From a virus: a DNA stretch of 26,143 bases. The notes beneath the pieces are model-generated. The model searched no databases and was not told the DNA's origin. It saw only the letters and a program-made list of their open reading frames with translations. Positions 15,562 through 23,713 of this stretch are shown in pieces. The stretch covers positions 1 to 26,143 of the IMG/VR virus record IMGVR_UViG_3300036862_000011, one strand, 5' to 3'. Position numbers and translations under genes: made by a program. Within the stretch, counting starts at the first letter, position 1, and each line of letters starts with the position of its first letter.

Positions 15562-16044
15562 TTAGAGGTGTTTCCAGGTATAGCGATGAACAATATCTCT
15601 GATTACGGTTGGATCAAGCATATATTCCTTAGCGAGCATGAACTGCCGCGCACCCATTGCAAATAGCCAGCGAATTTCGCGAATCATTTCTTCTGAATAT
15701 TTAGCCGTTGGATGCGTTTCGCCTTTTGCCGCTTCGCGACCGAGAACATGGAATAAATGTAGATTATTTTCTGAGGCGGTAACAATTTCCAGATTCTCGA
15801 CGCGATTATCAGAGCGATTGCCGTTTTTATGGTTTACGTGATACTTTTTAGGGATTGGACCAATGAAAGTTTTTGCGACAATTCTATGAATAAATCTTTC
15901 TCCATCTAGATTTCTAGTGAAATGAGGATATCCGGAATTCAATCGGCATTTAATTATTTGCCCACTTGAATTACGAATTCTTCCTTCAGAACTAATTTCG
16001 AAGATTTCTGAATTGCCAGCTTTTACAAACTTCCATTGCTCCAT
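15562..16044 (-). CDS. HNH homing endonuclease with NUMOD4-like N-terminus, 160 aa
   Basis: The ATG at 16044 (MEQWKFVKAG) has AGGAGA 7 bases upstream. An extension to 16092 would run into the coat gene and is rejected. Residues about 1-35 (EIFEISSEGRIRNSSGQIIK) match the NUMOD4 DNA-recognition motif. Residues 50-100 form the HNH core (HRIVAKTFIG; YHVNHKNGNRSDNRVENLEI; TASENN). The C-terminal part (SEEMIREIRWLFAMGARQFM; LDPTVIRDIVHRY) looks like a helix-turn-helix DNA-binding unit. It is a free-standing nuclease between coat and decoration genes and AT-richer than both, which fits a recently acquired selfish gene. It probably cuts homologous phage DNA near this site. Confidence 0.88.
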   Translation of the reverse strand: MEQWKFVKAGNSEIFEISSEGRIRNSSGQIIKCRLNSGYPHFTRNLDGERFIHRIVAKTFIGPIPKKYHVNHKNGNRSDNRVENLEIVTASENNLHLFHVLGREAAKGETHPTAKYSEEMIREIRWLFAMGARQFMLAKEYMLDPTVIRDIVHRYTWKHL

Positions 16045-16067
16045 TAGCGTATCTCCTAAGTCATTGA

Positions 16068-17249
16068 TTATGAAGTGATTCGCACGCCCCATTCAGGCCG
16101 CAATGCAGCGAATCCATACAAGATATCCACACGAGTAAGATATTCGTCATTTCGAATATCCCCATCCGACCATACTCGCAACGATATCCCGTCGTAGGTT
16201 TTGCGTGAGCATTCGCCAGGCATAATCGGCAAGTCAGCTGTCGCGAATGTATACGCTTCCTTGTGGTACATGAGATCTTGCGCGTAAGTCGTTGAGGCGG
16301 AACCAACGAACACGATGTCATCATTGTCAGCTGGAAGCTGCGTGACGTTTTGTCGCGGCCCAGAAGCATAGATAGCAGGTTGGAAGGTGATAAGCGTCGT
16401 CGTTGCCGCCGTCACGGTGAATTGCTGAAGATGCGAATACGCCTGTTTGGTTTCCGGATGAACCGCCTTTGAAAGCTCGAAAGTAAACACTGACCCGACA
16501 GTAGGCGCCGCCGTGAAGCCATCAACTGTCACAGTTGTCGCTCCTTCCGTCACGCCGCCGGCCATATTCACTTCACCGGCAACATCCGCGCCATTCGTAT
16601 GACGATAGGTCCGTTCATTGGCGTACCAATCAGCCATCGTAGTACGGCCAATAATACCTTCGCGATATTGCTGCTTGATTTGCGAAGCATCCTGGAATAG
16701 ACCCTTATTCGCCCCGACCATCTTCGCCATCGTAATGCTATTGACTTGCAGCGAACGATTGTCATCTTCAGGCGCTAGGTACTGATTGAGCTTGGCCTGC
16801 GCATTAGCAAAGATTTCCAAATCATTCGGGACCGTACCTGGCGTGCCGACAAGGTTGTAGGTTGCTTTCGTCATTGCGGTCAAATAGTCCGCCTCAATGC
16901 CGGAAACGAGAACAGCCATTGCTGGCTCTAAGATGCGCTTTGAATAATCATCCAGCTTTAAAGCTCGCTCGGCGGAAGTGAAGGCGATATCAACGCCATC
17001 CTGCGTCGCAACCGTCAATGCTACGCTTTCTTCGATGGTATCTTGTACGGCCATGATGCGAGAGTTTGTGCGTCTGACATATCGAACCGGCTTTCTGATT
17101 CGAAGCGTATCGCCGATCTTTGCGCCTGTCTTAGCGAAAGAGTCGTCATAACTACGGTCGGTTGTTGCAATGAATTTCGTTTTCTCGTGGGCGATGCGAA
17201 GCGCCTCGCGAGTGATCATATCGATCGTAAGTAAAGTATTGGTAGCCAT
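16068..17249 (-). CDS. Major capsid (coat) protein, P22 gp5-type, 393 aa
   Basis: This forms the icosahedral head. The N-terminus TLLTIDMITREALRIAHEKT, the DRSYDDSFAKTGAKIGDTLR block and IRKPVRYVRR are typical of the P22 coat family (HK97 fold with the N-arm first). They are followed by EESVALTVATQDGVDIAFTS and a C-terminal DILYGFAALRPEWGVRI. It is slightly shorter than P22 gp5 (430 residues). AAGGA precedes the ATG, and the SD follows a small hairpin in the leader. The scaffold gene lies upstream and the HNH and decoration genes downstream. A paralogue of the first ~58 residues is encoded at 20445-20744. Confidence 0.92.
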   Translation of the reverse strand: MATNTLLTIDMITREALRIAHEKTKFIATTDRSYDDSFAKTGAKIGDTLRIRKPVRYVRRTNSRIMAVQDTIEESVALTVATQDGVDIAFTSAERALKLDDYSKRILEPAMAVLVSGIEADYLTAMTKATYNLVGTPGTVPNDLEIFANAQAKLNQYLAPEDDNRSLQVNSITMAKMVGANKGLFQDASQIKQQYREGIIGRTTMADWYANERTYRHTNGADVAGEVNMAGGVTEGATTVTVDGFTAAPTVGSVFTFELSKAVHPETKQAYSHLQQFTVTAATTTLITFQPAIYASGPRQNVTQLPADNDDIVFVGSASTTYAQDLMYHKEAYTFATADLPIMPGECSRKTYDGISLRVWSDGDIRNDEYLTRVDILYGFAALRPEWGVRITS

Positions 17250-17334: not shown

Positions 17335-18198
17335 TCATTTTCGTCCCAGTTGTCGATTGCGCTTCGCAATCCATGTCTCCATGTCATCATTGGACGAGGG
17401 CAAATCACTACTTGCATTCTTTCCCGTGAGTGGATCGATGGGCGGAGGCGCGGCTGATTTTACTTTCGACAATGACACTTCCAGCTTACCTAATTCCAAT
17501 AGCTGCTTGCTCGGTGATAGTTTTGAGATCCTTAGCGCTTCTTCCTTGTGCTTCCCCAAGTGATAGAGCAATTCATCCGGCTTGTCTGATTCCAAAATCG
17601 CCTCACCCATCAACGGCGTTATTTGAACATCGCTCGCAAAGGCTACCTCATGGAAATCCGGGAATTTCTTCTCGGCTTCTTCTGAGATGGAATTCAACTT
17701 CGATTGATGTTCTAGCACTCGCTGGTGTTGAGTCTGTACTAGCTCGCGATGCTTGGCTTCAGATTGTTCCTTCTGAATACGCTCTTGCTCCGCCTTCCGT
17801 TCCGCCGCGTAAACTTGCTTGGCCTCCCATCTGGCTATTGCGCCTTGATACTTCTCATAACTATCGAACTGTTCAAGCTGAGGCTGACCTTCCGATTTAT
17901 CGACATTGCCTGCATCTGATTGCGTTCGTCCCTTGCTGAGCAGATCCAACAATTGTCGGTTCTGATCCTCAATGACTCGCGCGCGTTCTTCTGCCGCCCG
18001 TCGTTGCGCTGTTAATTCGCTAAATCGTTTATTTAGCCCGTCTTGTTTCTTGTTAGCAGTGTCATTGCTTTGTTGAGGTGCTGGCGCCTCAACCTTATTC
18101 TGTTCCCAAGGGGGAACCTCAGCTTGCTGTGTTTCTTGAACCACCACCTCTTCCGCGGGCGGAGTTACGTCTATCGTTTGTGCTTCGTTTTCATTCAT
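17335..18198 (-). CDS. Scaffolding protein, 287 aa
   Basis: Its position directly before the coat gene and its composition identify it as the assembly scaffold. It is highly charged and helical with no Cys-rich or catalytic motifs. It has an acidic/Pro-rich N-terminus (IDVTPPAEEVVVQETQQAEV), a long coiled-coil middle (RFSELTAQRRAAEERARVIE; RWEAKQVYAAERKAEQERIQ) and a basic C-terminus (METWIAKRNRQLGRK). P22 gp8 binds coat through a basic C-terminal helix-loop-helix, and this tail could do the same. Length is close to P22 gp8 (303). The ATG at 18198 has GGGGA at 6 bases; the frame before it uses TTG at 18210. Confidence 0.82.
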   Translation of the reverse strand: MNENEAQTIDVTPPAEEVVVQETQQAEVPPWEQNKVEAPAPQQSNDTANKKQDGLNKRFSELTAQRRAAEERARVIEDQNRQLLDLLSKGRTQSDAGNVDKSEGQPQLEQFDSYEKYQGAIARWEAKQVYAAERKAEQERIQKEQSEAKHRELVQTQHQRVLEHQSKLNSISEEAEKKFPDFHEVAFASDVQITPLMGEAILESDKPDELLYHLGKHKEEALRISKLSPSKQLLELGKLEVSLSKVKSAAPPPIDPLTGKNASSDLPSSNDDMETWIAKRNRQLGRK

Positions 18199-18349
18199 GG
18201 GATTCCCCAAGGATTAACCCGGTCGCCACCGGCCGGTAGGTTTTGTAAAATCGATTAATATCTTCTCGTAAAACGTCTTCTCTTCTCACAAAGTCAATGA
18301 TTCTTCGAGTTTCTTCTTCACTATTTTTTTGTTGCTCATCATTGTTCAT
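18191..18349 (-). CDS. Small charged protein between portal and scaffold, 52 aa
   Basis: This frame fills the gap between the portal stop (18358) and the scaffold start, and overlaps the scaffold start by 8 bases. The product starts MNNDEQQKNSEEETRRIIDF and continues with VRREDVLREDINRFYKTYRP. It is highly charged and predicted helical with no membrane segment. Its SD is weak, so it may be translated by coupling to the portal gene. Tiny genes at this position are often overlooked. The overlap pattern, like other genes here, favours it being real. Function unknown. Confidence 0.55.
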   Translation of the reverse strand: MNNDEQQKNSEEETRRIIDFVRREDVLREDINRFYKTYRPVATGLILGESHE

Positions 18350-20448: not shown

Positions 20449-20744
20449 TGATAGCGCCCTTTATACTTAGTAGGCATCCTGATGCGCAAAGTATCGCCAA
20501 TACTTGCGCCTATGAGGCTAAAAGAATCCTCATAAGTTCGATCTATCCTCATCATGTCGTGCAATTGTTCAACGGCGAGATGGAGCGCCTCGCGAGCGAT
20601 AAGATCTACCGACAACAATCCATTGACAGCAAGAGACTGATTGGGAACAATCAATTGCCTAATAGGCATTAAGATCTCTGCCTTGACAATGGCAGGCGCA
20701 ATGCCGAATGCCAATATGCCTTCAAGAAATCCTCGCCTGTTCAT
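20445..20744 (-). CDS. Tat-signal-like protein fused to a coat N-terminus paralogue, 99 aa
   Basis: The ATG at 20744 overlaps the terL stop (ATGA); an ATG at 20756 is less likely. Residues 1-22 (MNRRGFLEGILAFGIAPAIV) look like a twin-arginine signal: RRGFL, then a hydrophobic stretch, then KAE. Residues about 40-98 align with the start of the coat protein: LLSVDLIAREAL versus LLTIDMITREAL, DRTYEDSF versus DRSYDDSF, and IGDTLRIR identical, about half of 58 positions by eye. Coat homology stops there and the stop codon overlaps the portal start. I infer a partial coat duplication fused to a small Tat-like phage protein. Secretion, or a role in coat assembly, is open. Confidence 0.75.
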   Translation of the reverse strand: MNRRGFLEGILAFGIAPAIVKAEILMPIRQLIVPNQSLAVNGLLSVDLIAREALHLAVEQLHDMMRIDRTYEDSFSLIGASIGDTLRIRMPTKYKGRYQ

Positions 20745-22021
20745 GCTCCCATCCATGCGGCTGATTGGCCTGTGTAAACAGCCCTAGTTGCACTTGGCGG
20801 CTTGGATCTGCTCGTCTTGTCTTGGGCCGATACCGCGAATCCCATAAACGCCGATGCGCCATGACTAGCCCAATTGTGCATAGGCTCCTTGCTGAACTGG
20901 CCGCCTTCCAATACCTTATATTGATAATGCCTGAGCGCATGAATGCCATCAGCGCAACGCTCGCGATCAAACCAAACATTGGGGAAAATCGTTCGGGCTG
21001 TATTGATTTGTGCCTCTATTGGCAGCAAAGGAATGATATTTATTTTGCGTCCAAGCTCTCTTGCTTGCTGCTCCAGGCTTTTCCCATTAGCTGCGAGTGT
21101 CTTATGTCGACCATCATGCGGTAGCCAATCGGTATCATATATATAAGGTCGCTTCTGGAGTTCTTGAATGTACCAACCAAGCGTCTGCTGTGAGCTTTCT
21201 AGATAGTCAATGACGCGCCATTCGAAGCCGATACGCTGGACAAACCAGATAGCCGTCGCATCAAAAAGGCCGAGATCCCAGAATGTGGAAACTGGCTTGG
21301 CGGGATTGTAAGGAACGCGAGTCAATCGGCATGGTTCTGCAGCCTCAGCATCAGACAGCTGCTTGGCAAAGACGGCGCCCTCGACAGCTTTCTTGCACAA
21401 CCCATCCCAAATGTTCTGGTAACCGCTGGGATCGCGCACGAGACAGTCTTTGCGCTCCTGCTCAAGCACCTCATTGAACCATGGATTATCACGCCAGCTC
21501 ATGCGGATCACGATGGAATCGGTGGGAGGAAGGACGACGAAGCGCTGGTAGGTTTCGTCTTCCTCAAGCTCTGGGTTGAAATCGATGTAGATCTCCGAGC
21601 CAGTCTTGCGAATAGTCGGAATCAGCGTATCCCATGACATTTTCGAGACAGTTTGCGCCTCGGTCACCCAACAATCGTCCGCGCCTTCCAACGACTTGAT
21701 GCTCTTGATGTTGTGCTTCAGGCCATGGAAAGTGAACAGCGTACCGTTCCTGCCGATGATCTCCGTCTTCTTAACATCGTAGAAGTTATGCAGTCCGAGA
21801 TTGTGGATCTGCTCCGACAGCAACGCGTGAACGGAATCATCAATCGAGTTCTGGAACTCGCGAGCACAGATGATTCTCCGCTTCTCGCTAGCACCTCTGA
21901 GCAGGAGTCGCCTTGAGATTCCCCACGAAGCCCCTTTGCCGCGGCCGCCGTAGACGATCTTATATCGTGCTGGCTTAAACAGCTGCTGAAGTTTTTCCGG
22001 GAATTGGGCCGAGACAATCAT
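20741..22021 (-). CDS. Terminase large subunit (TerL), 426 aa
   Basis: This is the packaging ATPase and nuclease. The N-terminal ATPase has an unusual Walker A (YGGRGKGASW, residues 24-33) with Lys shifted from the usual GKS/T position, Walker B ADDCWVTEAQT (about 114-123) and coupling motif IYIDFNP (144-150). The C-terminal RNase H-like nuclease has Asp residues in STFWDLGLFDAT (D249, D254), WLPHDGRHKTL (D303) and CADGIHALRHY (D358). This is the Terminase_3/PBSX-type layout and the length is normal. It overlaps terS by 4 bases at its start and the Tat/coat-like gene at its end. Confidence 0.93.
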   Translation of the reverse strand: MIVSAQFPEKLQQLFKPARYKIVYGGRGKGASWGISRRLLLRGASEKRRIICAREFQNSIDDSVHALLSEQIHNLGLHNFYDVKKTEIIGRNGTLFTFHGLKHNIKSIKSLEGADDCWVTEAQTVSKMSWDTLIPTIRKTGSEIYIDFNPELEEDETYQRFVVLPPTDSIVIRMSWRDNPWFNEVLEQERKDCLVRDPSGYQNIWDGLCKKAVEGAVFAKQLSDAEAAEPCRLTRVPYNPAKPVSTFWDLGLFDATAIWFVQRIGFEWRVIDYLESSQQTLGWYIQELQKRPYIYDTDWLPHDGRHKTLAANGKSLEQQARELGRKINIIPLLPIEAQINTARTIFPNVWFDRERCADGIHALRHYQYKVLEGGQFSKEPMHNWASHGASAFMGFAVSAQDKTSRSKPPSATRAVYTGQSAAWMGA

Positions 22022-22311
22022 TTATCGACAGGGACGAACTCGACAGTGATCTTGACTGGAATGTCAGAGCCATCCGGCCCGCTCATCTCTTGCGGGATAA
22101 GCTTCTGAGCGATCATGTAGAAATCCTTCGGATTCGCCTTACCCCAGTTCTTCAGATGCGCCGGATCAGCATCGTCCTCTTGCAGATAGTCGAACGCTTC
22201 CTTGAAGGCTTGGCGTACGCTCACAGTCAGCTTGTTCTGCACGCCCTTCTTGCGTCCTGAACCTTCTGATTTCTTGCCTCTCGGCTTTCCCTTTGGCCAT
22301 CCTTGAGACAT
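22018..22311 (-). CDS. Terminase small subunit (TerS), 97 aa
   Basis: The first gene of the late operon. The N-terminus is a basic DNA-binding region (GWPKGKPRGKKSEGSGRKKG, VQNKLTVSVRQAFKEAF), followed by a helical DYLQEDDADPAHLKNWGKAN segment and PKDFYMIAQKLIPQEM. These match a recognised short TerS pattern found before this TerL type. TerS would recognise the packaging site and load TerL. The ATG lies inside a 9-bp hairpin (22310-22334) with GGGA in the loop, so its translation may be controlled. The ATGA overlap links it to terL. Confidence 0.85.
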   Translation of the reverse strand: MSQGWPKGKPRGKKSEGSGRKKGVQNKLTVSVRQAFKEAFDYLQEDDADPAHLKNWGKANPKDFYMIAQKLIPQEMSGPDGSDIPVKITVEFVPVDK

Positions 22312-22334
22312 TCTGAAAATTTCCCTTTCAGAAT
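22310..22334 (-). promoter_or_regulatory. Hairpin that buries the terS start codon
   Basis: In the minus-strand RNA, ATTCTGAAA (22334-22326) pairs perfectly with TTTCAGAAT (22318-22310). The loop GGGAAAT carries the SD-like GGGA, and the A and U of the start AUG are in the last two base pairs. Folding would bring the loop SD close to the start, or block ribosome entry. Confidence 0.6.
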
Positions 22335-22362
22335 TTTCGCAGTGCGATATTTGTTAAATGAT

Positions 22363-22381
22363 AAATGACTCGCGGTCATTT
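22363..22381. promoter_or_regulatory. Perfect dyad, candidate operator in the divergent region
   Basis: AAATGAC (22363-22369), spacer TCGCG, GTCATTT (22375-22381): 7-bp perfect arms. No T tract follows on either strand, so an operator for a dimeric regulator between divergent transcription units fits better than a terminator. Confidence 0.5.
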
Positions 22382-22423
22382 GTGCTCAAAGAAAATTCTA
22401 CAACGTTTTGTGAGTTGTGTCAC

Positions 22424-22491: not shown

Positions 22492-22713
22492 ATGCAAACA
22501 GTATTCAATCGCAGCAAAACCGTTGTCTCGTTCTTTTACGGCAAACAAGCGTTCGGAATGAGCGCCCCTGATGCTAAAGAGTTTGCTGAGCAGGTCAAGC
22601 GAGCGCGCCACCAAGATGAAGCCAAAAGGGTAGAGAAGGCAGGGCAAATTCCATTTGCCGAATGGGCAAAATGGAAAGCAGTAAGGCTCTGCGGGAAGAG
22701 CATCCACTTATGA
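22492..22713 (+). CDS. Hypothetical small basic protein, 73 aa
   Basis: AGGAG sits about 7 bases before the ATG. The product is basic and helical (DAKEFAEQVKRARHQDEAKR, then FAEWAKWKAVRLCGK) with no membrane segment. It is the first gene of a four-gene rightward cluster reading away from the late operon across a shared control region. That position suggests an early gene, perhaps regulatory, but no DNA-binding motif is recognised. Confidence 0.65.
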   Translation: MQTVFNRSKTVVSFFYGKQAFGMSAPDAKEFAEQVKRARHQDEAKRVEKAGQIPFAEWAKWKAVRLCGKSIHL

Positions 22714-23155: not shown

Positions 23156-23372
23156 CAATCATGGCGGCCTACGTCCCGGCGCAGGCCGTCCATCGCAAGG
23201 CAAGATACGTCGTACCGCATCATTCTCAGCCGAAACGATCAGGATCATTCTTGAGATCGGCGGCGGGAATTTCTCCCTTGGCGTGGAGATCGCCGCTAGA
23301 GTAACGCGAGCTTATAAAATCACATTTGGTAGAAATGTCAATAAAAAAGCGCCCTGTAAGGACGCTTTATGA
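23142..23372 (+). CDS. Small DNA-binding-like protein, RPGAGRP / RHH type, 76 aa
   Basis: The N-terminus has GGLRPGAGRPSQGKIRR, the basic Gly/Pro-Arg pattern common at the start of small phage DNA-binding proteins. It is followed by TASFSAETIRIILEIGGGNF and SLGVEIAARVTRAY, which resembles a ribbon-helix-helix (strand SFSAETI, helix, GGGN turn, helix). It would bind DNA as a dimer and is a candidate regulator for the dyads in the neighbouring control regions. No SD is seen at the start, so coupling to the overlapping upstream gene is likely. Its 3' end overlaps the terminator of the opposing operon. Confidence 0.65.
   Translation: MRQTNNHGGLRPGAGRPSQGKIRRTASFSAETIRIILEIGGGNFSLGVEIAARVTRAYKITFGRNVNKKAPCKDAL
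23343..23368 (-). terminator. Intrinsic terminator of the right leftward operon
   Basis: Read on the minus strand: AAAGCG-(mismatch)-CCT, loop, AGG-(mismatch)-CGCTTT, running into TTTTTT ATT (T tract at 23348-23343). The hairpin is at 23346-23368, 19 bases past the stop of the 23387-23713 gene. Confidence 0.75.
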
Positions 23373-23386
23373 TCTCCCAACACTGC

Positions 23387-23713
23387 TTATGGTTGCGAGG
23401 GGGTATTCTCCGCTACTGCCGTTGCAAGTTCGGCATCTTTTGCGCCAAGAGCATCAGAGAGCGCCTGGAGCGCCGCAGGATTACCGCTTGCAATACACTC
23501 GTCCAACTTCGCTTTAATGCCCTTAATCAACGTGATTGCGGAATCAATCACATCAGCATTTTTTGCTACCTGCGCCTGAAGCGCATCAAGTTCACCGGCC
23601 ATGACATTCACCTTTCTTGTGAGTAAATCAATCTTAGCGTTTAATGTATCAAAATAATGCTTGATCGCATTATCCGCAAACCGTAAGTTAACATCCAATT
23701 CCCACCTAGGCAT
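23387..23713 (-). CDS. Coiled-coil protein, 108 aa
   Basis: GGGG lies about 8 bases before the ATG. It is a helical protein with heptad-like spacing (FDTLNAKIDLLTRKVNVMAG, ELDALQAQVAKNADVIDSAI). The C-terminus LQALSDALGAKDAELATAVA is a pattern I recall from small phage coiled-coil proteins near virion genes. It is the last gene of the right leftward operon, just before a clear terminator. A trimerising or structural accessory role is plausible but unproven. Confidence 0.7.
   Translation of the reverse strand: MPRWELDVNLRFADNAIKHYFDTLNAKIDLLTRKVNVMAGELDALQAQVAKNADVIDSAITLIKGIKAKLDECIASGNPAALQALSDALGAKDAELATAVAENTPSQP

Follow-up and report, generated by a model that had tools for sequence, protein, structure and literature searches.

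The A and U of the start codon of terS, the small packaging-motor gene, in an environmental phage lie in a perfect nine-pair inverted repeat that carries a Shine-Dalgarno (SD)-like sequence at its loop. The reading favored here, at about even odds (a probability near 0.5), is that in the mRNA the repeat forms a structure closing off the terS start and lowering TerS synthesis. In the folded transcript, the SD would sit at the tip of a nine-pair helix with the AUG at its base, and the 30S subunit would have to melt this helix before initiation, keeping TerS synthesis low. An SD- and AUG-occluding role is favored because such stems are rare at starts, the AUG is predicted to be paired, and relatives carry covarying, SD-holding hairpins at terS. 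The geometry, the rarity at starts, and the predicted stability are shown; we infer that the terS leader is transcribed, folds in this way in the cell, lowers translation, and was selected. A protein such as TerS, scaffold, or a host factor may tighten the hairpin. The DNA analyzed (the window) comes from IMG/VR, as a record 26,143 bases long.

The terS start site and its predicted fold

The terS, terL, portal, scaffold, and coat genes all lie on the minus strand of the window. An HNH endonuclease (HNH_3, with a weak NUMOD4 match) is inserted beside the coat gene at 15562-16092. The features surrounding the terS start are as follows:

20741-22021, minus strand: terL (PHROGs 3717 and 2)
22018-22311, minus strand: terS, 97 aa, PHROG 11043 (unknown function), directly before terL
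22310-22334, minus strand: perfect 9-bp inverted repeat, loop 22319-22325 (GGGAAAT)
22323-22327, minus strand: Shine-Dalgarno-like AAGGG, its GGG lying in the loop and 11 nt from the ATG (a sequence match)
22363-22381, no strand: perfect 7-bp dyad AAATGAC-N5-GTCATTT, operator-like, in the divergent intergenic region between terS and the 22492 gene
22395-22423, minus strand: promoter-like GTGACA-17-TAGAAT (a consensus match)
22492-22713, plus strand: divergent open reading frame (ORF), 73 aa, with AGGAG before its ATG
23346-23368, minus strand: terminator-like stem between the minus-strand ORF at 23387-23713 and terS

The window TerS has no Pfam match, and the name is supported by the position of the gene before terL and by a C-terminal tail resembling that of the Terminase_2-type TerS (record G001) that adjoins the nearest TerL, which is 64% identical. 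Homologues with a common SQGW or GRKKGVQNK region back the start at 22311. A tail of the form SGPDG..IP.KI.VEFV is common to the window TerS (22018-22311) and the protein at L119:160-648, although the two belong to different TerS families; this tail is perhaps the part that meets TerL.

From 22334 to 22310 the minus strand reads ATTCTGAAA GGGAAAT TTTCAGAAT. The first-pass annotation had described these arms as a perfect 9-bp stem around the loop GGGAAAT, with the A and U of the AUG inside the stem and the SD 11 bases away when unfolded, and all three statements are borne out: the terS ATG occupies 22311-22309, the outer two stem pairs include its A and U, and 11 nt separate the GGG from the ATG. 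Only two of the nine pairs are G-C. RNAfold adds one G-U pair and reduces the loop to 5 nt, so that the AAG of AAGGGA is also predicted to be paired; for the hairpin in isolation it predicts -9.3 kcal/mol at 37 C. Folding of 22280-22400 on the minus strand, the check that had been proposed, yields -29.8 kcal/mol (z -2.79), and 3 of 200 shuffles do as well.

The predicted pairing of the A and U of the AUG is 1.0 and 0.99 at 10 C, 0.97 and 0.94 at 37 C, 0.96 and 0.92 at 42 C, and still 0.83 and 0.75 at 60 C. An RNA thermometer melts within growth temperatures; since the pairing is predicted to persist from 10 to 60 C, a thermosensor is unsupported. The earlier suggestion that the hairpin sets packaging-motor output, for example by temperature, survives in part: limited terS output is favored, and temperature control is not. 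Nor does the hairpin resemble an intrinsic terminator, in which a G+C-rich stem is followed by a T run; it is absent from the terminator scan, and GTCTC comes next. At the gathering score, the window has no match in Rfam.

The promoter-like site at 22423-22395 would place the hairpin in the terS leader, with the terminator-like stem at 23368-23346 cutting it off from the minus-strand ORFs further upstream; both features are consensus matches. Eight promoter-like sites were found in the region against 3.4 expected, and two terminator-like stems against 2.2 expected, which is chance level. The divergent arrangement also bears on a quite unlikely alternative, in which the repeat is a DNA operator bound by a phage regulator that controls the divergent promoters of terS and the 22492 gene. 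The intergenic region does contain a second perfect dyad (22363-22381) together with promoter-like sites; however, the 22310-22334 dyad has no other good copy in the window (one copy has 3 mismatches), and the promoter-like site would start transcription about 55-80 nt upstream of the dyad.

Rarity of the stem and the case for chance

The main rival to the closed start site is a chance inverted repeat that touches the start codon and may weaken terS translation, yet was never selected; we give it well under even odds. The window contains one perfect 9-bp hairpin with a loop of 3-12 nt, and its shuffles contain 0.97 on average. About one such hairpin per window is thus expected by chance, so that its mere existence is unremarkable; its place is unusual. 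No stem of nine pairs occurs at any of 658 ORF starts or 875 ATG starts in the fetched loci (two sets drawn from overlapping loci), which argues against chance. Among 37 chosen starts in the window, the terS stem is the longest, and the runner-up has six pairs. The energy needed to open the terS start (10.0 kcal/mol) ranks fourth of the 37, and the three starts that cost more have no long stem, a point in favor of chance.

Chance also gains from the search for the hairpin in relatives, which began with TerS scans that yielded 25 loci and then at least 80. No close DNA relative of the window was found in collections that may omit records very near it, and the 21-nt core of the hairpin is in no other viral contig searched. 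The eleven closest TerS starts among the matches listed (37-52% identity) have no stem of at least six pairs ending at -6 to +3; one of them, L131, has such a stem ending at -7.

Several other terS loci have hairpins of their own. At L142:1487-1509, the 7-bp hairpin GCAATAA-TAGGGC-TTATTGC stands one nt before the terS ATG, and the N-terminus of this TerS (MAWPKGKGRR) is somewhat like that of the window TerS. At L025:895-945, the terS start lies in a strong predicted hairpin with an 8-bp stem that includes the A of the AUG (-22.1 kcal/mol for a 65-nt fold); its two nearest TerS relatives lack the hairpin. In L008-L016, a small stem CGCTG-AAA-CAGCG and variants of it were seen by eye about 15-30 nt before the terS ATG.

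In the first set of loci, a stem of at least six pairs ending at -6 to +3 was present at 10 of 91 terS starts, L142 and L025 among them (shuffle mean 2.3, with 0 of 60 shuffles as high), and at 12 of 423 other starts with intergenic sequence upstream, for a position bin that had been picked after the window and L142 had been seen. The repeat with the bin set beforehand found such stems at 3 of 120 new TerS starts (3 of 76 when counted by independent cluster), and no stem of seven pairs among them, in loci that belong mostly to other TerS branches. Family-wide enrichment of plain start hairpins was dropped after this failed repeat.

A covarying motif at terS and scaffold starts of related phages

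A different hairpin is found at the terS starts of a sister group whose TerL and TerS are 45-52% and 32-39% identical to those of the window. In alignment A2, made with MAFFT without structure from 15 distinct sister-group sequences, the outer 5-bp stem is paired in 75 of 75 cells, and four of its five pairs show double-sided changes (stems CUGAC/GUCAG, CCGAU/GUCGG, ACGAU/AUCGU, and CGCAU/GUGCG). When the partners are slid by 1-3 columns, pairing falls to 16-39%, and none of 500 shuffles reaches the covariation score of the stem. The sequences are related, so the cells do not count as independent events, and explaining them takes three or more separate sets of changes. An inner CC/GG pair includes the GG of the SD, giving the consensus stem-CAA-CC-loop-GG-A-stem with the SD inside. 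A covarying structure in the relatives is well supported. At the gathering score, Rfam matched only a tRNA in nine motif loci. The motif was assigned to the following starts:

terS starts: L204-L224, L071, L349, L359, L371, L380, L385, L387, L290
scaffold starts: L414, L415, L417, L419, L420

The sister-group hairpin, aligned without structure and holding the SD at terS, supports the closed-start reading of the window, and the occurrence of SD-holding hairpins at terS of related phages argues against chance. It also bears on a highly unlikely explanation, a host CsrA/RsmA-type site in which the hairpin presents GGA over the SD. The CsrA consensus is ANGGA in a hairpin loop. In the window, AGGGA begins on the last stem base and continues into the loop; in the relatives' motif, however, the GG pairs with CC and is not in the loop.

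Like the motif, the window hairpin has the SD inside and a 3' arm ending close to the start codon. Membership was nevertheless rejected: the core CAA-CC-loop-GG-A is absent, model R2 matches neither 22310-22334 nor the window scaffold start, and model R1 places the hairpin at rank 3 with an E-value of 1.9. The window shares CUGA..UCAG-A-AUG with L146, L149, and L156, a sequence likeness that counts in favor of the closed start and is only suggestive of a tie to the motif. The window hairpin is most likely independent or strongly diverged, holding terS translation down. Counting against a closed start are the roughly one chance hairpin per window, the stemless closest TerS starts, the failed enrichment test, the missing R2 match, and the low share of G-C pairs.

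The spread of the motif was followed with two models and a descriptor. R1, run over 260 loci at E-values up to 10, gave 17 hits. Seven are at terS starts: L071 (E 0.0003), L359 (0.003), L385 (0.05), and L349, L308, L035, and L116 (1.7-3.5). A further hit, in L143 (E 0.016), lies 12 nt before a terS start; another, in L335 (E 0.045), precedes another small gene; and eight are elsewhere, including L127 (E 0.02) before a 138-aa frame and L360, on the opposite strand. With filters off in 23 chosen loci, all 20 matches up to E 0.8 were terS starts (12 of them training sequences), and three loci had no match. R2 was built from these 20 matches and gave seven hits in 254 further loci: the terS starts of L079, L308, and L387, the L143 and L335 sites, and two elsewhere. 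The TerS of L071 belongs to another family (Terminase_2), and those of L085 and L035, which have no family match, are called terS only by their place before terL. Alignment A6 keeps 98.6% of 140 cells, but it was fitted to the model and leans towards it.

The descriptor (stem, [CTG]A[AC], CC, loop of 3-5, GG, A, stem) was written after members had been seen. Outside the training group, it gave 20 hits in about 1.3 Mb of non-redundant loci, against 7, 6, and 11 on shuffles of the whole set. Eleven of the hits, ten of them distinct, precede terS starts by 2-11 nt; the other nine lie elsewhere, two with an open frame nearby. L380, L387, L371, L085, and L290/L294 were first found by means of a descriptor. 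Among 202 distinct non-training terS starts of the family, the descriptor finds the motif at 8, and L116 and L079, seen by the model, bring the number to 10; the motif is a minority feature among terS starts. At L335:231-269, a CAA-CC-GTAA-GG-A hairpin precedes a small gene (MSKTETITFTTTPDVKAKV...) that is neither terS nor scaffold. Among 398 prophage genomes, alignment A1 matches four, and R2 hits one, antisense to a 216-aa frame and not at terS. Inspection by eye of seven named-phage records with related TerS, representing five distinct starts, revealed no motif.

An upstream frame of at least 60 aa stops near 16 of 20 motif sites, at 13 of them within 15 nt, several of these being close relatives; for the motif, translational coupling to the upstream gene is possible. 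No frame of at least 60 aa stops near the window site, so such coupling cannot act there.

The motif recurs at scaffold genes. For 18 motif loci, the complete records were searched with R2, which matched 24 sites at E-values up to 2: 15 at terS (most of them training sequences), one at the small L335 gene, and eight others. Five of these eight (E 0.015-0.72) are at the start of a PHROG 3927 gene, a head scaffolding protein, and three are at or before genes of 106, 302, and 499 aa. All five records with the scaffold-start motif also carry it at terS. A relaxed descriptor, applied to ten of these records in pieces (270 kb), gave 19 hits, of which nine were at terS, four at scaffold genes, one at a gene of 206 aa, and five away from any start. 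By tblastn with two of these scaffold proteins, the family is present in five of the ten records, with a fragment in a sixth, and the full scaffold genes carry the hairpin in 5 of 5 cases (four by the descriptor and G406 as a variant seen by the model). Forty further long records with a terS lacking the motif gave three R2 hits (E up to 0.5), none before a recognizable terS or scaffold start. A different conserved hairpin at the terS and scaffold starts of relatives hints at an undescribed way of restraining these genes. The corresponding site in the window is weak:

18198-18209, minus strand: probable scaffold start (ATG at 18198) with a 4-bp stem, TGGG-GAAT-CCCA, and without the motif

GGGAAAT was considered as a sequence common to the terS and scaffold starts of the window and was rejected, with 6 copies found against 4.9 expected and none at the scaffold start.

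A broader proposal, which we hold to be rather unlikely, is that a group of P22-like environmental phages has a packaging and head-assembly translational regulon. One hairpin, with a variable stem and a fixed CAA-CC..GG-A core holding the SD, would mark both terS and scaffold starts. A single factor, perhaps free scaffold protein, would recognize it, or ribosomes terminating on the gene upstream would open it, so that the amounts of motor and scaffold made would track capsid assembly. The window hairpin would then have diverged, retaining CUGA..UCAG-A-AUG while losing the core.

Known systems and the control of packaging genes

In the MS2/R17 coat-protein operator, a hairpin with a bulged stem lies at the replicase start and binds a known protein ligand. 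The window hairpin is alike in holding the SD and start codon of a phage gene; it differs in having no bulge, in belonging to a DNA phage, and in being a candidate element with no protein ligand assigned. Post-transcriptional autoregulation of the P22 scaffolding protein was reported long ago and is not known to have an RNA target. By analogy, the scaffold copies of the relatives' motif would be consistent with post-transcriptional scaffold control in a P22-like phage.

Phage T4 offers other comparisons. As described in an excerpt of PMC3014915, genes 38 and 25 have a split ribosome-binding site, in which structure between the SD and the AUG helps initiation. This is likewise a phage mRNA hairpin at a start site; by the same excerpt, it lies between an unpaired SD and an unpaired AUG, and it was rejected as a model for the window, where the AUG is in the stem and the SD at the tip. 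The portion of PMC3014915 on the T4 repressor proteins gp43, gp32, and RegA places a hairpin about 40 nt (gp43) and a pseudoknot 67 nt (gp32) upstream of the start. These cases share with the window phage translational control at or near the start, with structured RNA in two of them, and differ in that their repressor proteins are known. The cabRNA of staphylococcal phages, a trigger of CBASS that is about 400 nt long in phi80alpha, comes from terS-terL and so is also a structured RNA from terminase genes, but as presented in an excerpt of PMC10686824 it is not a start-site hairpin. Among the matches listed from open-licence PMC articles (titles and abstract openings), no literature on a terS or scaffold start hairpin was found, nor did an excerpt of PMC3185693 yield anything relevant.

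It has long been asked how phages balance scaffold and terminase against capsid. The window hairpin alone represents a smaller gain, as a candidate translation brake on a packaging gene; the covarying hairpin on the terS and scaffold starts of the same phages provides a concrete RNA element to test.
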